Shown in pieces: positions 25,066 through 49,579 of a stretch of DNA of 49,579 bases. This stretch comes from Ectothiorhodospiraceae bacterium WFHF3C12 (GTDB lineage: Bacteria; Pseudomonadota; Gammaproteobacteria; Nitrococcales; Nitrococcaceae), in the NCBI GenBank assembly GCA_013519935.1, contig JACDUA010000011.1, positions 1 to 49,579 of the forward strand. The letters are read 5' to 3'. Below the pieces are notes generated by a model. The model searched no databases and was not told the DNA's origin. It saw only the letters and a program-made list of their open reading frames with translations. The stretch's first letter is position 1. Each line of letters starts with the position of its first letter. The position numbers were made by a program, and so were the translations under genes.

Positions 25066-25638
<573 letters not shown>

Positions 25639-39771: not shown

Positions 39772-40263
39772 CTACTCGCCAAGCTGAACGCCGCTCTCCT
39801 CGGCCATGTGGATGACGGCCTTGCGGATCTCGTCCTCGCTGGCCGAGCCACTCTGGGCCGGCATGTTGCCAAAGCCGTTGACGGAATGGTCCACGAGGGT
39901 CGCAAGCCCCTTGTCGGCGCGCTCGGCCCACGCCTGCTCGTCACCGATCTGCGGTGCGTTCTGGAAATCGTTGGCATGGCACGCGGCGCACACGGCCTGG
40001 GTGACTTCCTGGCCGGAGCGCGGCTCTGCGGGCTCCTGGGGCGCCGCCTGGGCGATCTCCGGCATGGGCTCGCCGGAGACACGAACCTGCCCGACCGGTT
40101 CCAGACGCTGGGCGGTTCGTTCCTCGATAAGCTCGGCGTAGTCCTGGTCCTCGTCACCCACCGTCATGCTGGCGACGACGATGAGGAAAATCGTCAGGAC
40201 CACCAGAAAAATAATGACTCCGACGAAGGTCTTGATGAACGCCTGATCTTGTTCCCGACTCAC
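39772..40263 (-). CDS. Membrane-anchored cytochrome c5-type monohaem protein
   Basis: A 163-residue protein from a GTG at 40263 (VSREQDQAFIKTFVGVIIFLVVLTIFLIVVASM) with GGGGGA upstream. One uncleaved N-terminal membrane helix (about 10-33) anchors a Pro/Glu-rich linker. The c-type domain carries the haem motif CAACH (Cys92, Cys95, His96) and the axial Met in GNMPAQSG (Met134), matching the c5 family. A periplasmic electron carrier, probably delivering electrons to a terminal oxidase or reductase. Monocistronic, with its own terminator and a TATACT promoter word upstream. Confidence 0.92.
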   Translation of the reverse strand: MSREQDQAFIKTFVGVIIFLVVLTIFLIVVASMTVGDEDQDYAELIEERTAQRLEPVGQVRVSGEPMPEIAQAAPQEPAEPRSGQEVTQAVCAACHANDFQNAPQIGDEQAWAERADKGLATLVDHSVNGFGNMPAQSGSASEDEIRKAVIHMAEESGVQLGE

Positions 40264-40472
40264 CGCGGTCCCCCGAATCTGCTGACATGCCTGACGGCCG
40301 GCACGAGGCCAGCCGCCGAATGAATTCCGTGATGGTGCCGCTGACGCAGCCCGGACCCGCAAACTTCACCCTTCCGCGTTGCGGTCCCGGATGGCAGCCC
40401 TCTCCACGCCCTTGCTTCACTACCCGGACAGACTCGCGGGCGCGTATAACGGCTGGTTACAACGAGGTGCAG

Positions 40473-40501
40473 AGTATAGCGACATTGCCGGCAGGCGAAA
40501 A
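40473..40501 (-). promoter_or_regulatory. Candidate promoter of the cytochrome c5 gene
   Basis: Read leftward: TTTTCG (40496-40501), a 17-base spacer and TATACT (40473-40478). The -10 is strong (5 of 6), the -35 weak (3 of 6). It gives a leader of about 200 bases before the GTG. Confidence 0.35.
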
Positions 40502-40522
40502 CTACCCGTCGCGCAACGGGTT
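40497..40522 (-). terminator. Candidate terminator of the urt operon after urtE
   Basis: Read leftward: ACCCGT (40516-40521) and ACGGGT (40504-40509) form a six-base stem followed by AGTTTT. It lies about 20 bases after the urtE stop and overlaps the possible -35 box of the next gene. Confidence 0.5.
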
Positions 40523-40541
40523 CTGCGCGCGGCCCGGTCCG

Positions 40542-41231
40542 TCACACGGTCAGATGGTTCTTGACCAGCTCGTCACTGAGCTCACCCATGGCCCCGGTCG
40601 CCATGACTCGCCCGCGATCCAGGATCGTGAAGTTGTCCGCTACCCGCCTGGCGAACGGCAGCTTCTGTTCCACGAGCAGCACGGTCAGTCCCTGCTCGCG
40701 GTTGAGCCGGCGAATGATGTCGCCGATCTCGCGCACGATATTGGGCTGGATGCCCTCGGTGGGCTCGTCCAGGATCAGCAGCTTGGGCTCCAGGCACAGG
40801 GCCCGGCCAATGGCGAGCTGCTGCTGCTGCCCGCCGGAGAGGTCGCCGCCCCGGCGATGGCGCATCTCCCGCAGAACCGGGAATAGCTCGTGGACGATGG
40901 ACGGGATATCCCGGCCACCGATAGACGTGCGCGCCAGCCGCAGGTTCTCCTCGACGCTGAGCAACGGGAAGATCTCCCGGCCCTGGGGCACATAGCCGAT
41001 GCCGGCGCGGGCCCGTGCCTCCGGCGTGCGCTTCTGTATGGCTTGCCCGTCGAAGCGGATCTCCCCGGAGGCCGCGGGCAGCATGCCCATGACGGTCTTC
41101 AGCGTCGTGGTCTTGCCGACCCCGTTGCGCCCCATCAGACAGGTGCAGGACCCGGTGGGCACGTCCAGGTCCACGTCCCAGAGCGTGTGGCTCTCGCCGT
41201 AATACTGGTTCAGTCCGCTGATGGACAGCAT
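40542..41231 (-). CDS. urtE: Urea ABC transporter ATPase UrtE
   Basis: A 229-residue ATPase of the high-affinity urea importer. Typical UrtE sequence: MLSISGLNQYYGESHTLWDVDLDVPTGSCTCLMGRNGVGKTTTLKTVMG, Walker A GRNGVGKTTT, VPQGREIFPLLSVEENL, signature LSGGQQQQLAIG and Walker B LLILDEPTEGIQPN. The last gene of urtBCDE in order, but separated from urtD by 420 bases of repeats instead of the usual few bases. Whether it is still cotranscribed is therefore unclear. Confidence 0.96.
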   Translation of the reverse strand: MLSISGLNQYYGESHTLWDVDLDVPTGSCTCLMGRNGVGKTTTLKTVMGMLPAASGEIRFDGQAIQKRTPEARARAGIGYVPQGREIFPLLSVEENLRLARTSIGGRDIPSIVHELFPVLREMRHRRGGDLSGGQQQQLAIGRALCLEPKLLILDEPTEGIQPNIVREIGDIIRRLNREQGLTVLLVEQKLPFARRVADNFTILDRGRVMATGAMGELSDELVKNHLTV

Positions 41232-41254
41232 TGCCGGTCTCCTAAACCCTTATT

Positions 41255-41645
41255 CCAGCCACAGATGAACACGGATAGACACCGATTCTGGTACTTTTCC
41301 GCCGTGGGCCACTCCGGCAGAGGGGCTTGTCGAAGCCCGCGTGGGAGTGGCGTCCTCGCCGCGATTCCCTGGCGGCCCATTCGCGGCCAGGGGCCGCTCC
41401 TACAGCGGGGCCGTGGGAGCGCCGACCCCGGCGCGAACGGATCGAGTGCCGTATTCCGTCCATTCGCGGCGACGTCGCCGCTCCCACGCGGGCCTCGACA
41501 GGCCGAGTCGTAGGAGCGGCCCCTGGCCGCGAATGGCCGGTGTTCAGCACCCTGCCCAACCGGAGCCGTCGCGCCTCGCGGCGCTCCTGCCCGTGCCCGT
41601 CCGCCCTCAGGGAATCCGTGTCCATCCGTGTTCATCTGTGGCTAA
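41255..41645. repeat. Repeat cluster D: best-preserved inverted-arm REP composite, inside the urt operon
   Basis: Left arm 41255-41287 starts with CCAGCCACAGATGAACACGG. Right arm 41613-41645 is its inverse; 29 of 33 positions agree. Between the arms are six REP-like hairpins: about 41340-41370, 41380-41405 (CGCGGCCAGGGGCCGCTCCTAC), 41409-41440, 41463-41493, 41509-41540 (GTAGGAGCGGCC..GGCCGCGAA) and a degenerate one at 41566-41590. There is no gene. It fills the gap between urtD and urtE. Confidence 0.9.
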
Positions 41646-41651
41646 ACGAAC

Positions 41652-42488
41652 TCATTCGCCCAGGTACACCTCGACCACCTTCGGATCATTCTGCACCTGG
41701 TCCATGGTGCCCTCGGCCAGGACGCTACCCTGGTGGAGCACCGTCACCTGGCGGGCAATGGAGCGCACGAACTCCATGTCGTGCTCCACCACCACCACGG
41801 AGTGTTTGCCCGCCAGGCCGGTGAGCAGCTCGGCCGTGCGGTCCATCTCCTGGTGGGTCATACCCGCCACGGGTTCGTCCACCAGCAGCAGCCGCGGGTT
41901 CTGCATCAGCAGCATGCCGATCTCCAGCCACTGCTTCTGACCGTGCGAGAGCTGCCCCGCGGCCTGGTACGCCTCGGCCGTCAGGCCGATGGTTTCCAGC
42001 GCTTCCTCGATGCGGCCGCGCTGCTCGCCGGAGAGCCGCGCCAGCAGGGTCGGCCACACCCGCTTGTCCGCCGCCATGGCCAGCTCCAAGTTCTCCAGCA
42101 CCGAGTGGTTCTGGAACACGGTGGGTTTCTGGAACTTCCGGCCGATGCCGCCACTGGCGATCTCGGTCTCGTCGAGCCGCAGCAGATCGATGCGCTGGCC
42201 GAACCAGACCCGGCCCTGCTCGGGCCGGGTGCGGCCGGTGATAACGTCCATCATGGTGGTCTTGCCGGCACCGTTGGGCCCGATGATGCAGCGCAGCTCG
42301 CCGTCGTCCACGTACAGGGTCAGCTCGTCGAGGGCCCTGAAACCGTCGAAGCTGACGGTCACGTCCTCGACGTAAAGAATCGGCCCGTGGCTGGTGTCCA
42401 GCCGCTGCGAGAAGTCGGCGCTGGGCATCATCCAGTCGAAGACGCGATCCCGGCGCATGGTCTCCCGGGTCTGTTCGAGCATGCTCAT
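41652..42488 (-). CDS. urtD: Urea ABC transporter ATPase UrtD
   Basis: A 278-residue ATPase. Its ATG at 42488 overlaps the urtC stop (ATGA), so the longer open frame upstream is a shadow. UrtD-type N-tail MSMLEQTRETMRRDRVFDWMMP, then ILYVEDVTVSFDGFRALDELTLYVDDGELRCIIGPNGAGKTTMMDVITG (Walker A), GIGRKFQKPTVFQNHSVLENLELAM, signature region LSHGQKQWLEIGMLL, Walker B LLLVDEPVAGM and H-loop VVEHDMEFVRSIA. Its stop lies only seven bases from the right arm of repeat cluster D. Confidence 0.96.
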   Translation of the reverse strand: MSMLEQTRETMRRDRVFDWMMPSADFSQRLDTSHGPILYVEDVTVSFDGFRALDELTLYVDDGELRCIIGPNGAGKTTMMDVITGRTRPEQGRVWFGQRIDLLRLDETEIASGGIGRKFQKPTVFQNHSVLENLELAMAADKRVWPTLLARLSGEQRGRIEEALETIGLTAEAYQAAGQLSHGQKQWLEIGMLLMQNPRLLLVDEPVAGMTHQEMDRTAELLTGLAGKHSVVVVEHDMEFVRSIARQVTVLHQGSVLAEGTMDQVQNDPKVVEVYLGE

Positions 42489-43639
42489 GAGCCTGCTTCC
42501 TTCTTGTCCTTGCGGCGGCGGATGAGGCCGACTATGCCCCGGGGCAGGAACACGGTGACCACCACGAACAGCGCGCCCAGGGCGAAGGTCCAGCCCTCGG
42601 GCCAGACGCCGGTGAACACGGTCTGGGCATAGTTCACCAGGACGCCGCCGCCGGCCGCGCCGAACAGGGTCCCGCGGCCACCGACCGCCACCCAAACCAC
42701 CACCTCGATGGAATTGAGCGGCGAGAACTCGCTGGGATTGATGATGCCCACCTGGGGCACGTAAAGGGCCCCCGCCACTCCCGCGAGCATGGCGGAGACA
42801 GTCCAGACCCAGACCTTGTAACGGTCCACCCGGTAGCCGATGGATCGCACCCGCGGTTCGGCGTCCCGTACGGCGGTGACCACGCGCCCGAGCTTGGAGC
42901 CGACGATGAACCGGCAAAGCACGTACGCGACGCCCAGGGCGATGACCGAGGCCATGAACAGCGCCAGGCGGGTCCCGTCGGCCTGCAGGTCGTAGCCGAG
43001 AATGTCCTTGAAATCAGTCAGGCCGTTGTTGCCGCCAAAGCCCATTTCGTTGCGGAAGAAAGCCAGCATCAGCGCATAGGTCATGGCCTGGCTGATGATG
43101 GACAGGTACACCCCGGTCACCCGCGAACGGAAGGCCAGCCACCCGAATACGAAACCCAGCATGCCCGGGGCGAGCAGCACCATGAGCATGGCGAACCAGA
43201 ATATGTCGAAGCCGTACCAGTACCAGGGCAGCGACTCCCAGTTGAGGAATACCATGAAGTCCGGCAGCACCGGGTCGCCGTAGACGCCCCGGGTGCCGAT
43301 CTGGCGCATCAGGTACATGCCCATGGCGTAGCCGCCCAGGGCGAAGAACGCCCCGTGCCCCAGGCTGAGGATGCCGCAGAAGCCCCAGACCAGATCCACG
43401 GACATCGCCAGCAGCGCGAAACACAGGTATTTACCCAGCAGGGTGACCGTGTAGGTGGGCACATGCAGCGCCGAGCCCGGCTCGGTGAGGAGGTTCAGCG
43501 CCGGCACCAGGATACCCACGGCCAGCAGCACGCCCAGGAAGATCTTGCCGCCGGTGTCGCCGTAAAGGATGCCACTCAGGCCACCGCGCATGACCGGACG
43601 TTCGCTTGCGGCCACACTGTTTACCGTCTCTGTCGTCAT
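42485..43639 (-). CDS. urtC: Urea ABC transporter permease UrtC
   Basis: A 384-residue inner-membrane permease with about ten helices. UrtC hallmarks: YLCFALLAMSVDLVWGFCGILSLGHGAFFALGGYAMGMYLM, then VFLNWESLPWYWYGFDIFWFAM and AVRDAEPRVRSIGYRVDRYKVWVWTVSAMLAGVAGALYVPQVGIINPSEFSPLNSIE. Translationally coupled to urtD by an ATGA overlap. A 163-base gap to urtB holds a mini inverted-repeat element. Confidence 0.96.
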   Translation of the reverse strand: MTTETVNSVAASERPVMRGGLSGILYGDTGGKIFLGVLLAVGILVPALNLLTEPGSALHVPTYTVTLLGKYLCFALLAMSVDLVWGFCGILSLGHGAFFALGGYAMGMYLMRQIGTRGVYGDPVLPDFMVFLNWESLPWYWYGFDIFWFAMLMVLLAPGMLGFVFGWLAFRSRVTGVYLSIISQAMTYALMLAFFRNEMGFGGNNGLTDFKDILGYDLQADGTRLALFMASVIALGVAYVLCRFIVGSKLGRVVTAVRDAEPRVRSIGYRVDRYKVWVWTVSAMLAGVAGALYVPQVGIINPSEFSPLNSIEVVVWVAVGGRGTLFGAAGGGVLVNYAQTVFTGVWPEGWTFALGALFVVVTVFLPRGIVGLIRRRKDKKEAGS

Positions 43640-43683
43640 ACAGATGCCCCAGTTTTGACCGCCGGCCCGAAGGACACGGCCGA

Positions 43684-43776
43684 TAGCCGCGAGATGGACG
43701 CGAATCCCCCGCGAAATGGCTTTGCAGGGAGCGAAATCCCCGTTTCGCGTTCATTTCGCGTGGATCTCGCGGCTGA
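43684..43776. repeat. Mini inverted-repeat element between urtC and urtB
   Basis: Arm TAGCCGCGAGATGGACGCGAA at 43684-43704 (written here in full at 21 positions only by its key parts AGCCGCGAGAT and ACGCGAA) faces its inverse TTCGCGTGGATCTCGCGGCT at 43755-43774, with two mismatches. This is a variant of the arms of clusters A-D, only 93 bases overall and without a REP hairpin inside. Confidence 0.7.
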
Positions 43777-43802
43777 AAGAAGGATTTCCATGATCACCCC
43801 GC

Positions 43803-45410
43803 CTAGCCTTCCGAGGCGGCGCGGCCGCGCTGGGGGAATAGACCCTGCGGGCGCTTCTGGATGAACAGGATGATGAACACCAGCACCAGCACCTTGGCCA
43901 GCACGGCACCCGTGGTCGGCTCCAGGAACTTGTTGAGCACGCCCAGCGACAGGGCCGCCGTCAGGGTGCCGAAGAGGTTGCCGACGCCGCCGAAGACCAC
44001 CACCAGGAAGGAGTCGACGATATAGGCCTGGCCCAGGTTTGGTCCCACGTTGGTGATCTGGGACAGGGCTACCCCACCCAGGCCGGCGATGCCGGCGCCC
44101 AGGCCGAAGGTCATGGCGTCCACCCACTCGCCGCGCACGCCCACGGCCCGGGCCATGCTCCGGTTCTGGGCCACGGCGCGGACCTTCAGCCCGAGGGTGG
44201 TGCGATTCATGATCAATAGCAGGCCGATGAACACCAGCAGGGCGAAGGCGATGATCACCAGCCGGTTCATGGTCAGCGACAGGACCGGATTGATGACGAT
44301 GGAGCCGCTCATCCACTCCGGCGTGGTGACCGACCGGTTCAACGGCGAAAAGACGGTTCTGACGAGCTGCTGCAGGAACAGGCTCACGCCGAAAGTCGCC
44401 AGCAGCGTCTCCAGCGGCCGGCCGTAGAGGAAACGGATCACGCCCCGCTCCAGCGCCACGCCGAAGGCCCCCGCCACGAGGAAGGCCGCCGGCAGCGCCA
44501 CGAACAGGGACAGGCCGATGTGGTTGGGCATCAGCTGCTGGACGACGAAGGTGGTGTAGGCCCCCAGCATCAGGAACTCGCCGTGGGCCATGTTGATGAC
44601 GCCCATCACACCGAAGGTGATGGCGAGGCCGATGGCGGCCAGCAGGAGCACCGAGCCCAGCGACAGGCCGAAGAAGACCTGCTCGAGGCGGTCGTAGAAC
44701 GCGACCCGGGATTCCACCGTCTCCAGCGCGGTGGCCGCCGCCTCCTGGACGGCGGCCGGGTTGTCCTCCTCGCCCGCGGCCTGGCGCAGGGCGTTGCGCG
44801 CCTCGTTCTGCAGGCTCTCGCCCAGTACCTCGACGGCCTCCAGCTGCTGGGCCTCCTCGCCGCTGTCCAGCAACGCCAGCGAGGCGGCCACCCGGAGCGC
44901 GTCGCGGACGCGATCGTTGTCTTCCTTCTCCAGCCGCGCCCGGATCATGGCCACGTCGTCCGGTGCCAGCTCACCATACATGGCCTTGGCGGCCGCCAGT
45001 CGCTCCTCCGGGTCCGGGCTGGCGAGGCGCAGCCGGGCGATGGCCGGCCCCATCTGGCGGCGCATCAGGATATTCACCCGAATCTTCTCGAGACTGCCCG
45101 CCTCGGCAATGGGCTTGCCGCTGGTCGCGTCCACCACCGGGCCCTGACGGTCCTGCTGGATCACGATGCGTCCGTCGGATTGGTGGACGTAGAGGTTGCC
45201 GTCCTTGAGCGCGCTGAGCACCGCTGCCGCCCTGGGATGGCCGGAATCGGCGATCTGCTCGGCCACATCCATCTTGGTGCGGAAGTTTCGCGTGTCGAGC
45301 TCCTGGAGCAGGTCCGAGAAGTCCTCCGCCCCGGCCGGGGCGGCGACCAGGGCGCAGAGCAGCAGCGCCGCCACCACATGAAAGACCTTGACCGCTTTTG
45401 GGGAAATCAC
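43803..45410 (-). CDS. urtB: Urea ABC transporter permease UrtB with N-terminal periplasmic domain
   Basis: A 535-residue protein with a GTG start at 45410 (GGGAG about eight bases upstream). The long form of UrtB: a signal-like helix (VFHVVAALLLCALVAAPAGAEDF), then about 200 residues of HEAT-like helical repeats (DAASGKPIAEAG-like DATSGKPIAEAGSLEKIRVN; LRLASPDPEERLAAAKAMYGELAPDD). The permease part begins near SLGSVLLLAAIGLAITFGVMGVINMAHGEFLMLGAYTTFVVQQLMP and ends FIQKRPQGLFPQRGR. Transports urea with UrtC. Preceded by an apparent sigma-54 promoter at 45485-45500, so urtBCD can be transcribed separately from urtA. Confidence 0.95.
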   Translation of the reverse strand: MISPKAVKVFHVVAALLLCALVAAPAGAEDFSDLLQELDTRNFRTKMDVAEQIADSGHPRAAAVLSALKDGNLYVHQSDGRIVIQQDRQGPVVDATSGKPIAEAGSLEKIRVNILMRRQMGPAIARLRLASPDPEERLAAAKAMYGELAPDDVAMIRARLEKEDNDRVRDALRVAASLALLDSGEEAQQLEAVEVLGESLQNEARNALRQAAGEEDNPAAVQEAAATALETVESRVAFYDRLEQVFFGLSLGSVLLLAAIGLAITFGVMGVINMAHGEFLMLGAYTTFVVQQLMPNHIGLSLFVALPAAFLVAGAFGVALERGVIRFLYGRPLETLLATFGVSLFLQQLVRTVFSPLNRSVTTPEWMSGSIVINPVLSLTMNRLVIIAFALLVFIGLLLIMNRTTLGLKVRAVAQNRSMARAVGVRGEWVDAMTFGLGAGIAGLGGVALSQITNVGPNLGQAYIVDSFLVVVFGGVGNLFGTLTAALSLGVLNKFLEPTTGAVLAKVLVLVFIILFIQKRPQGLFPQRGRAASEG

Positions 45411-45484
45411 ATCGGCGCTCCCGTTGGCCGGGGCGGCATGAGCGCCCCGTAGTGGGTCGTTCCCGGATTCTGGAGCAAAGCGTT

Positions 45485-45500
45485 TGCAGGCACCGTGCCA
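45485..45500 (-). promoter_or_regulatory. Sigma-54 promoter of urtBCD
   Basis: Read leftward: TGGCACGGTGCCTGCA, exact TGGCAC and GG-N10-GC spacing, about 75 bases before the urtB GTG. Confidence 0.78.
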
Positions 45501-45564
45501 GCATGCACGGCGCCTTTGCGTTCAGTGACTTAGCCGGGGCCGTCCCGAAACCGGGAGCAACCGC

Positions 45565-45606
45565 TGCACCAACGGGGAACATACCGGTGCAGACCGGCGC
45601 ACCATC
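45565..45606 (-). promoter_or_regulatory. NtrC-like words upstream of urtB
   Basis: TGCACC at 45565-45570 within TGCACCAACGGGGAACA, GGTGCA at 45586-45591 and GCGCACC at about 45598-45604. They lie roughly 65-105 bases upstream of the -24 box; spacing is imperfect compared with the glnK site. Confidence 0.45.
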
Positions 45607-45689
45607 CCGATGCGGCCCGCTGCCTCCTCGCCCGGACATGTCACCGACGCGCTCGAGCGACTTCCGTGACCGGGGCACTAGGTGGATGC

Positions 45690-45796
45690 TGAGGAATCGC
45701 GGCGGGGACGACGCTTCCACGCGGGCTTCGGCATGCCGAGTCGAAGGAGCGGCCCATGGCCGCGAACCGGATGGGATCTGTATCCATCGGTGGCTG
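45690..45796. repeat. Repeat cluster E: two REP-like units with a single GATGAAC-type arm
   Basis: Degenerate REP units at about 45695-45725 (ATCGCGGCGGGGACGACGCT..) and 45744-45770 (GGAGCGGCCCATGGCCGCGAA), then one arm at about 45767-45796 (GGGATCTGTATCCATCGGTGGCTGAA). No matching left arm was found. Lies between the urtA terminator and the urtB regulatory region; the rest of 45501-45690 shows no gene. Confidence 0.65.
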
Positions 45797-45805
45797 AATA
45801 AAGAA

Positions 45806-45837
45806 AGACCGGGGCACAGGGCACCCGGCCTTATACT
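45806..45837 (-). terminator. Candidate terminator after urtA
   Basis: Read leftward: GGCCGGG and CCCGGTC pair (one G-U) around TGCCCTGTGC and are followed by TTTCTTT. About 32 bases after the urtA stop. It would separate torF-urtA from urtBCD. Confidence 0.6.
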
Positions 45838-45868
45838 CACCTGGTTGGAGGAGTCACTGAGTGAGCGC

Positions 45869-47182
45869 TTACTCGTAGTTCTGGCCGGAGCATTCGGCCT
45901 GGGTCACATCGTAGTTGCCGCAGGCCAGGGGATCGCGCCAGTCGGCGATGATCTTGGCGCTCTCCGGCAGGAAGTCCGACCAGGCGTCGCCCGCCACCAG
46001 CCCGGGGGTCTCCCAGACCACCGAGTACTGACCGTCTTCCTGGATCTCACCGATGAGCACCGGCTTGGTGATGTGATGGTTGGGCATCATCGACGCGTAG
46101 CCGCCCGTCAGGTTGGGCACGGACACGCCCACCATGGCGCCGGTCACCGCCTCGGGCTCGGAGGTTCCGGCCTTCTTGACGGCCTCGACCCACATGTTGA
46201 AGCCGATGTAATGGGCCTCCATCGGATCGTTGGTCACCCGGTCGCTGTCGTCCATGTACGCCTGCCACTTCTTGATGAAGGCGTCGTTCTCCGGCGTCTC
46301 CACGCTCTGGAAGTAGTTCCAGGCGGACATGTGGCCGACGAGCGGGCCGGTGTCGATGCCGGAGAGCTCCTGCTCACCCACGGAGAAGGCGATCACCGGA
46401 ATATCCACCGCGGAGATGTTCTGGTTGGAAAGCTCCTTGTAGAAGGGCACGTTGGCGTCGCCGTTGATGGTGGAGACCACCGCCGTGGGTTTGCCCTGGG
46501 AGCCGAACTCCTTGATGCGGGAGACCTCGCTCTGCCAGTCGGAGAAACCGAAAGGCGTGTAGTTGACCAGGATGTCCTCCTCCGCCACGCCGCGATCCAT
46601 GAGGTACTGCTTCAGGATCTTGTTGGTGGTGCGGGGATAGACATAGTCCGTGCCCTCGAGCACGAAACGCTCGATGCCGAGCATGTTGCGCAGGTAATCC
46701 ACCGCGGGGATGGCCTGCTGGTTCGGCGCGGCACCGGTGTAGAACACGTACCTGGACGATTCCTCACCCTCGTACTGCACCGGATAGAACAGCGGCACCT
46801 CCAGCTCCTCGACCACCGGAAGTACGGACTTGCGGGACACCGAGGTCCAGCAGCCGAAGATGACGTCCACACCCTCTTCCTCGATGAGCTCGCGGGCTTT
46901 CTCGGCGAACAGCGGCCAGTCCGAAGCCGGGTCGACTACGACCGGCTCCAGCATGCGCCCGTCGATGCCGCCTTTGGCGTTCTGCTCCTCGATGAGCATC
47001 AGCATGGTGTCTTTCAGGGTGGATTCGCTGATGGCCATGGTGCCGGACAGCGAGTGCAGAATCCCGACCTTGATCGGGTCATCCTCGGCGTGGGCCGGTC
47101 CGGCGAAAACGCCGGCCGCCATGGCGATGCCGGCAGCTGTTCCCGCTACGCGGCGCAGGCTGCGTTTGAGTTGTCCCAACAT
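45869..47182 (-). CDS. urtA: Urea-binding periplasmic protein UrtA
   Basis: A 437-residue secreted binding protein from the ATG at 47182, with AAGGAG nine bases upstream. The N-terminus LGQLKRSLRRVAGTAAGIAMAAGVFAGPAHA is a signal peptide. UrtA-specific blocks are KVGILHSLSGTMAISESTLKDTMLMLIEEQNAKGG, FGCWTSVSRKSVLPVVEE, LFYPVQYEGEESSRYVFYTGAAPNQQAIPAVDYL, DYVYPRTTNKILKQYL and NYDVTQAECSGQNYE-like ending. Lies 106 bases after torF on the same strand with no terminator in between, so it may be driven by the sigma-54 promoter at 48140-48155. Confidence 0.96.
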   Translation of the reverse strand: MLGQLKRSLRRVAGTAAGIAMAAGVFAGPAHAEDDPIKVGILHSLSGTMAISESTLKDTMLMLIEEQNAKGGIDGRMLEPVVVDPASDWPLFAEKARELIEEEGVDVIFGCWTSVSRKSVLPVVEELEVPLFYPVQYEGEESSRYVFYTGAAPNQQAIPAVDYLRNMLGIERFVLEGTDYVYPRTTNKILKQYLMDRGVAEEDILVNYTPFGFSDWQSEVSRIKEFGSQGKPTAVVSTINGDANVPFYKELSNQNISAVDIPVIAFSVGEQELSGIDTGPLVGHMSAWNYFQSVETPENDAFIKKWQAYMDDSDRVTNDPMEAHYIGFNMWVEAVKKAGTSEPEAVTGAMVGVSVPNLTGGYASMMPNHHITKPVLIGEIQEDGQYSVVWETPGLVAGDAWSDFLPESAKIIADWRDPLACGNYDVTQAECSGQNYE

Positions 47183-47288
47183 GGCTTGGTTCTCCTTGAG
47201 GCGTTGGAGTCGTTCGAGTCGTTGTCGATGCGGCCCGGCCATCCCTGGCCGACGTCCGACGGTCGCTGCCGGTGGCCGCGGTAGCGCT

Positions 47289-48050
47289 TTACATCGCGTC
47301 GAAGCCGTAGCTCAGGCCCAGCACCACCGTGTCTTCCTGCTCGTTGCCGTCACGGTCCTCACCGCCGACCACGTACGTGATGCTCATGTCGGCGCCGGTA
47401 TCACCGATCGGGTGAGAGAGGCTCAGGTCCAGGTGACGGAACGCGGAGTCGTTCTCCGTGGCGGAGATGAACTCGCCCTCGTCCGTATAGAGGTAGTAGC
47501 CGAGGGTCGCGCCGAACGAGAAGCCGGCGGGCAGGGGCGCACCGCCGCTCAGGGTGATATAGGTATCGCCCTCGTTACCCCAGACCACGTCGTCGAGCAG
47601 GTACTTCGCGCCGAGGCTGACGGGCCCCCAGCCGACGCTGGCGGCCAGCTCCGGGGCGTCGGCGTCGTCGATGCTCATGTAGTAGTAGTAGATGGCACCG
47701 ACGTCGTAGCTGAAGTCACCGATGCTTCCCGCGTAACCGGCGTAGAAGTCGTTCTCGAAGCCGGATTCGGCGTACGGCGCATCCGGGTCGCCGCTGGCGT
47801 CCGCATAGCTGAGGCTGGAACCCCAGTACCCGGCGTAAATGCCGCTGGAATGGCCCCAGTCCAGGCCGCCCTGGACCGCCGTGCCGTTGTTCTCCATCGC
47901 CGACGTGATGCCGCGCAGCACATAGTTGGAGACCACGCTGATGTTGCCGCTCACCTCGGCGCTGGCCGGGGTCGGGGCGGCCAGGGTGGCACCACCCAGC
48001 GCTACAACCGCCGACAGGGCATACAGGTTCTTGGTCATCGCTTGCTTCAT
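47289..48050 (-). CDS. TorF family putative outer-membrane porin
   Basis: A 253-residue barrel protein with ATG at 48050 (GGGAGA upstream). The signal peptide MKQAMTKNLYALSAVVALGGATLAAPTPASA is followed by the family signature EVSGNISVVSNYVLRGITSAMENNGTAVQGGLDWGHSSGIYAGYWGSSLSY. Repeated aromatic beta strands lead to a C-terminal VVLGLSYGFDAM. Proteins of this kind (TIGR02001/TorF) often sit beside urea or amide ABC transporters. Together with the sigma-54 promoter in front, this suggests that it is the outer-membrane entry for urea; that role is inference. Confidence 0.88.
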   Translation of the reverse strand: MKQAMTKNLYALSAVVALGGATLAAPTPASAEVSGNISVVSNYVLRGITSAMENNGTAVQGGLDWGHSSGIYAGYWGSSLSYADASGDPDAPYAESGFENDFYAGYAGSIGDFSYDVGAIYYYYMSIDDADAPELAASVGWGPVSLGAKYLLDDVVWGNEGDTYITLSGGAPLPAGFSFGATLGYYLYTDEGEFISATENDSAFRHLDLSLSHPIGDTGADMSITYVVGGEDRDGNEQEDTVVLGLSYGFDAM

Positions 48051-48139
48051 TGCCTATCTCCCGTAGAGGTACAGAAATCGTCTCGGCGCGCCGCGAGCCA
48101 GCAGTTTCTGGCCGCGCTTCGCTGCACCGCGCCATCCTT

Positions 48140-48155
48140 TGCAGGGGATGTGCCA
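48140..48155 (-). promoter_or_regulatory. Sigma-54 promoter of torF(-urtA)
   Basis: Read leftward: TGGCACATCCCCTGCA, exact TGGCAC with GG-N10-GC, about 90 bases before the porin start codon. Confidence 0.78.
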
Positions 48156-48261
48156 ATGGCTGTTTCTTGTTTTTATTCAATAACCTAAAAGCCATTACGA
48201 GTTGCGCCGGGAAAAACGCTTTTCCCAGGGAGGGCCTAAATGGGGCGTGGCGAACCGGGTT

Positions 48262-48278
48262 TGCTCCATTTCGGTGCG
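48262..48278 (-). promoter_or_regulatory. NtrC-like enhancer site for torF
   Basis: TGCTCCATTTCGGTGCG fits TGCACC-N5-GGTGCA at 10 of 12 defined positions, about 107 bases upstream of the -24 box. A further GGTGCG half-site follows at about 48285-48290. Between this and the promoter there is also a GGGAAAA/TTTTCCC hairpin (about 48211-48229). Confidence 0.5.
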
Positions 48279-48464
48279 GGAATTCGGTGCGTCGCGGCCG
48301 AAGCCGGGGCGAGGCGGAGAACGGCGGGGGCCATGTTGCGCCACAGCAACAGGCGTATGGGCAGCAAGAAACGCGGCCCTGACGGCGAGGCGCCCGCCGC
48401 AGGCTGCGCGTCTTGGGAACGCCCCCCGGCGCGAAAAACGTGGTGCCGGAATCAGGCGGATCGC

Positions 48465-48868
48465 GGCGAGGACGCCGCTCCCAGAGCACATTGCCAGCAA
48501 GTGCTGCCGCAGGACTGTGGGAGGCGCGTCCTCGCGGCGATAGGTGGGCTACCGGTTCGCGGCCAGGGGCCGCTCCTACGGCGAGGGGCCACGGCACCTG
48601 TAGGAGCGGCGCAAGCCGCGATCCGGCGTCGAGTCGGCACCGGCCATCGCGCCTTACGGCACTCCCAAACCTTCACGTCGGCGGCGCCGGCATTCCGTGA
48701 CCGAAAGCCGGATGGCACGCCCATCCGATCTCCGCCCGGCGTCGCCGACAAGACCTCTCCCCTGGCGGAACGGACTCTGGGAGAGGGAAGCGGCATCGCG
48801 GCGAGGACGCCGCTCCCGGGCGGGCTTCGACCAGGCCCGTCGTAGGAGCGGCCCCTGGCCGCGAACAC
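48465..48868. repeat. Repeat cluster F: REP-like hairpins without bracketing arms
   Basis: The torF-ureG gap (48051-48889) holds no supported gene. REP-like units are at about 48465-48495, 48518-48545 (GTGGGAGGCGCG..), 48553-48580 (CGCGGCCAGGGGCCGCTCCTAC), 48598-48625, 48791-48820 and 48840-48868 (GTAGGAGCGGCC..GGCCGCGAA). No GATGAAC-type arm was found on either side. The segment 48626-48790 between units looks non-coding. Confidence 0.8.
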
Positions 48869-48889
48869 CATTGCGGAAGTGAGCAGGCT

Positions 48890-49510
48890 TCAGGCCGCCT
48901 CGGTCAGCAGGCCCTCGCGCAGGATGAAGTCGATGATCTGCTGCAGCCCTTCCTCCCGGGCGATGCTCGCGAAGACGAAGGGCTTGTCGCCGCGCATCTT
49001 GCGGGCATCCCGGTCCATGACGTCCAGGGACGCACCGACATGGGGCGCCAGGTCGATCTTGTTGATCACCAGCAGGTCGGAACGCGTGATGCCCGGCCCG
49101 CCCTTGCGGGGAATCTTGTCACCCGCGGAGACGTCGATCACGTAGATGGTGAGATCCGAGAGCTCGGGACTGAACGTGGCGGCCAGGTTGTCGCCGCCGC
49201 TCTCGATGAATACCACGTCCAGGTCCTGGAACTTGGAGTGCAGATCCGCCACCGCGCTGAGATTCATGGAGGCGTCTTCCCGGATGGCGGTGTGCGGGCA
49301 TCCGCCCGTCTCCACACCCACGATGCGCTCGGGGGGCAGCGCCTCGTTGCGGGTCAGGAACTCGGCATCCTCCCGTGTGTAGATGTCATTGGTCACCACG
49401 GCGATGGAGAGCCGGTCGCGAAGTGCACGGCACAGGGCCAGCGTCAGCGCCGTCTTGCCCGAGCCCACCGGGCCGCCGATGCCGACTCGCAGGGGGTCGC
49501 GTTGGGTCAT
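48890..49510 (-). CDS. ureG: Urease accessory GTPase UreG
   Basis: A 206-residue SIMIBI-class GTPase that delivers nickel to urease with UreD/F/H. The P-loop [14 protein letters not shown] is at about residues 10-23. The Ni/Zn-binding [18 protein letters not shown] (CPH motif) is at about 66-83, followed by [19 protein letters not shown], the GTP-specificity [10 protein letters not shown] and [20 protein letters not shown] at 49510 with GGAGG seven bases upstream. Other urease genes would lie just beyond the right edge. The link to the urt importer is functional: urea enters and is hydrolysed. Confidence 0.97.
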
Positions 49511-49532
49511 GTCTGTTCCTCCGAAGATTGAT

Positions 49533-49559
49533 TGTGGGAGCGGCGACCCCGCCGCGAAT
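49533..49559. repeat. Single REP-like unit upstream of ureG
   Basis: TGTGGGAGCGGCGACCCC followed by GCCGCGAAT, matching the units of clusters A-F. It sits 22 bases before the ureG start, in the gap to the gene beyond the window. Confidence 0.75.
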
Positions 49560-49579
49560 AGTTTATTCGAAACCGTTCG

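Follow-up and report, generated by a model that had tools for sequence, protein, structure and literature searches.

A gene for a TorF-family porin heads the urea-transporter (urt) operon in a contig of Ectothiorhodospiraceae bacterium WFHF3C12 (JACDUA010000011.1, assembly GCA_013519935.1), of which we analyzed positions 1 to 49,579 of the forward strand; this whole stretch of 49,579 nucleotides is referred to below as the window. The porin gene is preceded by a putative sigma-54 promoter and an NtrC-like site, and a survey of 146 TorF genes indicated that such signals occur in front of this family far more often than expected by chance. What the sequences establish is the gene family, the gene order, the signals with their conservation, the repeated occurrence of TorF at urt, amt, fmd, and ure genes, and that the genome encodes NtrC and RpoN. 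We consider it very likely that NtrC and sigma-54 regulate the porin gene in this way, which would make its expression dependent on nitrogen, and we hold with similar confidence that its product is a pore. The explanation that we prefer as a whole, and regard as reasonably probable, is that of a small pore induced under nitrogen starvation, cotranscribed with urtABCDE and easing the entry of urea.

The porin gene and the urt operon of the window

The porin corresponds to an open reading frame (ORF) at 47289-48050 on the minus strand that encodes 253 amino acids. The protein matched the TorF model TIGR02001 with 115.2 bits (cut-off 47.15) and, in a Pfam scan, PF09694 (Gcw_chp) with 100 bits (cut-off 24); the latter was the sole Pfam family retrieved at an E-value of 0.001 or better, the families of KdgM and NanC not being among the matches. 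It is followed by urtA, urtB, urtC, urtD, and urtE, in this order down to position 40542, while ureG lies on its 5' side, all of them scoring above the NCBIfam cut-offs (the urtA product matched TIGR03407 with 534 bits). Since the likely start of urtA is the ATG at 47182, which is preceded by an AGGAG motif on reading, the gap to the stop codon of the porin gene amounts to 106 bp. The minus strand showed no listed terminator-like site from 45826 to the end of the window. The scan of 40.5 to 49.5 kb covered seven proteins (TorF, UrtA to UrtE, and UreG), and neither a formamidase nor a tor gene is among them. The features are as follows.

48890..49510, minus strand: ureG, for a urease accessory protein, on the same strand and 5' of the porin gene
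48262..48278, minus strand: NtrC-like site CGCACCGAAATGGAGCA, matching the consensus at 10/12 positions and lying some 120 bp ahead of the sigma-54 element
48140..48155, minus strand: putative sigma-54 element TGGCACATCCCCTGCA, matching 10/12 consensus positions, with normally spaced GG and GC, some 90 bp ahead of the porin start
47289..48050, minus strand: TorF-family porin, stop codon included (profile match, predicted 12-strand barrel, signal-peptide-like N-terminus by eye)
47183..47288: gap of 106 bp between porin gene and urtA, no terminator-like site listed
45869..47182, minus strand: urtA, for the urea-binding protein (the ORF extends to 47242, and the ATG at 47182 is the likely start)
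43803..45410, minus strand: urtB, permease (the UrtB model spans residues 243-530 of 535)
42485..43639, minus strand: urtC, permease (profile match)
41652..42490, minus strand: urtD, ATPase (3' part of the ORF 41652-42917, start approximate and set by eye)
40542..41231, minus strand: urtE, ATPase (profile match)

Both upstream sites were scored against what we take to be the sigma-54 and NtrC consensus strings. In the window as a whole, matches of at least 10/12 positions were close to chance for either factor, with seven observed and 5.7 expected for sigma-54 and nine observed and 7.8 expected for NtrC; the window by itself was for this reason rejected as a basis for judging the promoter, and relatives were compared. 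A sigma-70 promoter was rejected as well, no such site being listed in 40300-49579. The source genome encodes both NtrC (746 bits) and RpoN (488 bits), each above its cut-off.

Conservation of the signals across the TorF family

TorF was sought in 59 relatives and in 232 genomes of the class, and it was present in 22 and 126 of them, respectively. The 146 TorFs analyzed comprise 106 from 100 regions of the class list (drawn for the most part from its stronger rows, with the weaker rows and a small number of higher ones omitted), 13 that are linked to urt genes or lie near them, 26 from the relatives, and that of the window; they are what was left of 156 profile hits after dropping loci that repeated a gene and one fragment, while an 85-residue fragment (L119) was kept. 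Start codons were picked by profile alignment and the 250 bp upstream were read for 145 TorFs, the one without upstream sequence being omitted.

A sigma-54 site matching at least 10/12 positions was present in 78 of the 145 upstream regions, compared with 2.2% of 2900 random windows from the same loci, and at 11/12 or better the corresponding values were 39/145 and 0.7%. Other gene starts in these loci carried such sites in 9/529 (at least 10/12; Fisher p 9e-51 against TorF) and 2/529 cases (at least 11/12), and in control genes encoding OmpW one site was found in 20, although some OmpW starts could not be placed with certainty, the match having begun within the protein. Furthermore, an NtrC-like match of at least 10/12 lay upstream of 56 of the 78 sigma-54 sites but in only 3.6% of 780 background windows. 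For the class rows taken alone, a sigma-54 site of at least 10/12 was present in 60/119 (48/105 after subtraction of the urt-linked fetches). All ten TorFs directly before urtA (for one of them, L054, the next gene is urtA-like but scores under the UrtA cut-off) had the sigma-54 site, and eight had the NtrC-like one; among TorFs linked to urt or near it, a sigma-54 match of 9/12 or better was found inside 400 bp in 16/17. Comparison with random windows and with other gene starts thus places the promoter far above chance, and the pattern of signals is, as judged from upstream sequences, that of an NtrC-controlled family, though not a universal one. The initial annotation had described the porin gene as preceded by sigma-54 and NtrC-like sites and followed by urtA with no terminator in between; this description was confirmed, and it is the conservation in the family that makes it convincing.

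Genomic contexts of TorF genes

The arrangement of the window, a porin heading a urt operon behind such signals, is recurrent. Besides the ten cases directly before urtA, the 146 TorFs include 59 that are followed immediately by glnK-amtB in the same orientation, 10 near glnK or amtB in another order, eight near urt or ure genes, and three at the end of a locus. In nine of the ten TorF-urtA loci, that of the window included, ureG lies at most 900 bp upstream. The clade of the window porin served to find a second set of named loci, 80 in number, several contigs being the same as in the first set; these were read over a promoter region of 360 bp. There, 24 TorFs stood directly before urtA (20 with a sigma-54 and 14 with an NtrC-like site), 10 near urt or ure genes, three before glnK-amtB, and 43 elsewhere. 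TorF, a P-II gene, and amtB are consecutive in two Herbaspirillum genomes, where the upstream sigma-54 match reaches 11/12 and the NtrC-like match 10/12; the P-II protein scanned (L241) falls slightly under the curated model cut-offs (175.5 vs 181 bits).

Linkage to urea and amide genes takes several forms. At L164, ureG and TorF come first, then a formamidase (776 bits) and an FmdB-type protein, and finally UrtA (which at 531 bits exceeds its cut-off) and a urtB-like gene, while at L051 a formamidase (769 bits) follows TorF; the FmdC-type gene row with formamidase is thus found outside the window locus. TorF precedes urease genes, ureG, and urtA at L053, where an aliphatic amidase (709 bits) lies about 3 kb off, and it precedes urease genes with one gene between at L052 (ureD, A, B, and C of both loci were named from reading of translations). 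In Guyparkeria sp. WRN-7 (L209, 4248-12308), a formamidase (776 bits) and an FmdB-like protein, the latter recognized by eye, stand on one side of TorF and urease genes on the other; of the urease genes, ureG was found by tblastn and the others were read by eye.

The initial annotation had taken position and regulation of the porin gene to point to the passage of urea across the outer membrane and had proposed a survey of TorF linkage to urtA and fmdD and to sigma-54 promoters, naming homologues mostly unlinked to amide or urea transport as the outcome that would speak against it. Taken as worded, this outcome is what the survey returned, with 59 of the 146 TorFs before glnK-amtB and 56 in no recognized context. 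The part of the proposal that stands is the recurrent linkage to urt, formamidase, and urease rows, whereas urea as the job of the whole family is not supported. TorF looks like a nitrogen-starvation pore family joined to various nitrogen operons and not tied to urea alone.

Among the 60 class genomes with UrtA at an E-value of 1e-90 or better, 36 also have TorF, which stands directly upstream of urtA in nine of them, as counted from positions. We also looked at urt operons devoid of TorF: in 6 of the 20 genomes that were fetched of the 24 TorF-less ones, the 600 bp ahead of the point where the UrtA model begins contained a sigma-54 match of at least 10/12, against 56 of 1000 background windows. 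In the relatives, urtA of G004 (L058) has an 11/12 site just before it and urtA of G003 (L057) has none. Judging by these matches, the urt promoter is sometimes, not always, of the sigma-54 kind, and TorF may have been inserted behind it.

Predicted structure and a clade-specific loop motif

An AlphaFold2 model built on an alignment of 97 TorFs is a 12-strand barrel with a predicted local distance difference test score (pLDDT) of 87.5 and a predicted template modelling score (pTM) of 0.81. Its connections are longer after strands 1, 3, 5, 7, 9, and 11, while the other turns have two to five residues, and this predicted alternation of loops and turns is that of outer-membrane barrels, so that by prediction the window porin is an outer-membrane beta-barrel. 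With VIA-align 2, the best solved match was the KdgM porin (4fqe; Z 17.0, root-mean-square deviation (rmsd) 2.4, 164 residues aligned, 12% identity), and NanC gave Z 16.0, rmsd 2.9, 183 aligned residues, and 11% identity; Foldseek hits fell on barrels that differed in size, and the order given by VIA-align 2 was the clearer one. A solved relative was also sought by sequence, which returned four matches up to an E-value of 1; even the best of them (0.0068), to a portion of a general porin, was not accepted as a relative.

In a quick tree of the TorFs, the window porin belongs to a clade of 15 rows (Shimodaira-Hasegawa-like approximate likelihood ratio test support 96), seven of which stand directly before urtA, four near urt or ure genes, one before glnK-amtB, and three elsewhere; the sister clade of five includes four rows linked to glnK-amtB. 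All 15 members, and none of the 131 other TorFs, carry the motif WGNxGD, which was first noticed in an alignment containing 11 of the 15. It lies between strands 7 and 8 of the AlphaFold2 model, in a loop that is presumably external. Direct linkage to urtA requires seven changes on this tree, at least four of them forced by well-supported branches, which implies either repeated gain of TorF by urt operons or its repeated loss.

Proposed role of the window porin and alternative explanations

The mechanism that we propose runs as follows. When nitrogen is short, phosphorylated NtrC bound near 48270 would activate sigma-54 RNA polymerase at 48155-48140, and a single transcript would carry the porin gene and then urtABCDE. 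The gene would encode a small 12-stranded outer-membrane pore that raises the permeability of the outer membrane to small nitrogen solutes, in this locus urea first, so that at low urea the periplasmic high-affinity UrtA system would be freed from the diffusion limit. Members of the family would serve likewise ahead of other nitrogen transporters, such as AmtB and the amide ATP-binding cassette (ABC) system. As to the part that concerns urea, we lean towards its passage being a relevant role of the window porin.

Several observations weigh against this explanation. General porins already pass urea, and the gain from TorF may therefore show only at very low urea. UrtA occurs without TorF in 24 of the 60 genomes, so that urea uptake does not in general require the pore. 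TorF is tied to glnK-amtB more often than to urea genes, and 56 of the 146 TorFs lie in none of the recognized contexts, 22 of them with a sigma-54 site. The signals are not universal in the family either: the site was found in only 11 of the 43 unlinked TorFs of the named set (most of them Burkholderiales by record titles), the best match before TorF of Guyparkeria sp. WRN-7 reaches only 7/12, and among the 30 strongest of the matches kept as loci from an evenly drawn sample of the phylum (four of them, G064, G065, G175, and G200, also in the class set), only seven had a sigma-54 site, accompanied by an NtrC-like match of at least 10/12 in only three. Lastly, NlmA of Herbaspirillum seropedicae, which we discuss below as a putative TorF protein, was placed most probably in the periplasm (PMC3023670).

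The alternative that has to be taken most seriously, and on which we are evenly divided, is a general pore of nitrogen starvation, without preference among ammonium, amines, amides, trimethylamine N-oxide (TMAO), and urea, whose placement before urtA would be accidental. It fits the 59 TorFs before glnK-amtB as opposed to only ten before urtA, the seven changes of linkage on the tree, and the annotation of Shewanella torF as a porin of the TMAO system (PMC5955497); against it, the clade of the window porin is mostly linked to urt genes and has WGNxGD to the exclusion of all other TorFs, which leaves room for specialization. The same clade is the argument for the opposite extreme, a channel selective for urea and tuned within this lineage. 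Such selectivity appears unlikely from the distribution of the motif, which is also present in L134, L148, and L140, in no recognized nitrogen context, and in L147, before glnK-amtB, while the urtA-linked L044, L049, and L054 stand outside the clade and lack it; the motif nevertheless gives reason to keep strict urea selectivity in view.

Two further explanations were weighed. TorF might alter the outer membrane during nitrogen starvation in a structural or signalling capacity, with no passage of solutes. Pore activity of TorF did not appear in the titles and abstracts searched, which agrees with this idea; among solved structures, however, it is the small channels KdgM and NanC that the predicted barrel resembles most, and TorF is recurrently paired with uptake genes, and we judge such a role decidedly improbable. 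The signals before the window porin might also be fortuitous, another promoter driving the gene. The near-chance counts of single sites in the window would allow this, yet the enrichment in the family, the sites of 16 of the 17 urt-linked or urt-near TorFs, the NtrC-like sites at a fitting distance, and the lack of a listed sigma-70-like site make it very hard to believe.

Beyond the window, we put forward tentatively, as an idea somewhat more doubtful than the reading of the locus itself, that in Gammaproteobacteria nitrogen scavenging relies on TorF as its general gate in the outer membrane, i.e., on a modular NtrC-controlled pore that heads glnK-amtB, urtABCDE, formamidase/amide, and urease operons, the WGNxGD clade being adapted to urea. 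The conserved NtrC-like signals and the operon partners would give a concrete role to TorF (Gcw_chp), a common family, and passage across the outer membrane is, in our view, a little-studied step of nitrogen scavenging.

Other features of the window and the source genome

Within the long gap between urtA and urtB, the part at 45485-45591 (minus strand) contains an 11/12 sigma-54 match at 45500 and NtrC-like matches at 45565 (10/12) and 45575 (9/12), a possible second promoter before urtB. In UrtB (43803-45410), about 240 residues precede the part covered by the model. After urtE, a small c-type cytochrome gene (Pfam Cytochrome_CBB3) is present at 39772-40362 on the minus strand; similar genes, several of them near TorF, occur in 25 of the 286 loci searched, a few of which overlap, and in none of the 20 OmpW loci, which are shorter. 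Between ureG and the porin gene, at 48454-48870, lies a dispersed repeat with words such as GTAGGAGCGGC, and when 47000-49579 was searched against the source genome, almost all of the 142 matches (the self-match among them) fell in this stretch. The porin adjoining urtA was the sole TorF match in the source genome. The glnK-amtB genes of the window (about 25.0-25.6 kb, minus strand) have their own sigma-54 match at 25493 and NtrC-like match at 25590, both 11/12; they lie about 22 kb from the porin gene, which thus does not stand directly before them as in the NlmA-type arrangement. Elsewhere in the source genome (L055, G000:C136:64165-67815), two UrtA-like genes below the UrtA cut-off have an 11/12 sigma-54 match between them.

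Comparison with known systems

A function for TorF porins or a link to urea uptake was not found in the titles and abstracts searched, most of the subscription literature lying outside them. The family presumably takes its name from torF of Shewanella oneidensis (SO4694). That gene is annotated as a porin of the TMAO system, concerned with TMAO reduction (PMC5955497), and it is likened here to the window porin by name and annotation. The solved structures nearest to our model, KdgM and NanC, differ from the window porin in sequence family, its only Pfam family being Gcw_chp, and the KdgM entries are titled oligogalacturonate porins.

In regulation and gene order, the closest parallel is nlmA-glnK-amtB of H. 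seropedicae, which depends on NtrC and is expressed 21 times higher under nitrogen limitation, and whose NlmA was detected in membranes (PMC3023670). In two other Herbaspirillum genomes, TorF likewise precedes a P-II gene and amtB behind sigma-54 and NtrC-like sites, and from this gene order in two congeners we infer that NlmA is a TorF protein, which would link the older observation to a porin family. If NlmA does belong to TorF, the NtrC dependence of its operon also speaks against the other outcome that the initial annotation had named as refuting, a porin whose expression does not respond to nitrogen status. NlmA differs from the window porin in preceding the transporter of ammonium, not urea, and it is not termed a porin in the available part of PMC3023670. 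BCAL3473 of Burkholderia cenocepacia is also a nitrogen-responsive porin with sigma-54-like elements and is lower in an ntrC mutant; its deletion left the use of urea or ammonium unaffected, and biological amines were proposed as its substrates (PMC5491218, PMC10117139). Its likeness to the window porin lies in the described nitrogen response and sigma-54-like elements.

FmdC of Methylophilus methylotrophus (fmdCABDEF) is the porin of a urea/amide cluster (PMC10781810, PMC7078480) and shares 19% identity with ExtI (PMC5877670). The likeness concerns gene rows: TorF of L164 heads formamidase, fmdB-type, and UrtA genes, and the FmdC-type row with formamidase and an amide ABC transporter is found at L164 and L051 and not at the window locus. 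Since FmdC, as described in these papers, already represents a porin within a urea/amide cluster, a porin in urea uptake is of a known kind, and the TorF version would be a variant of it.
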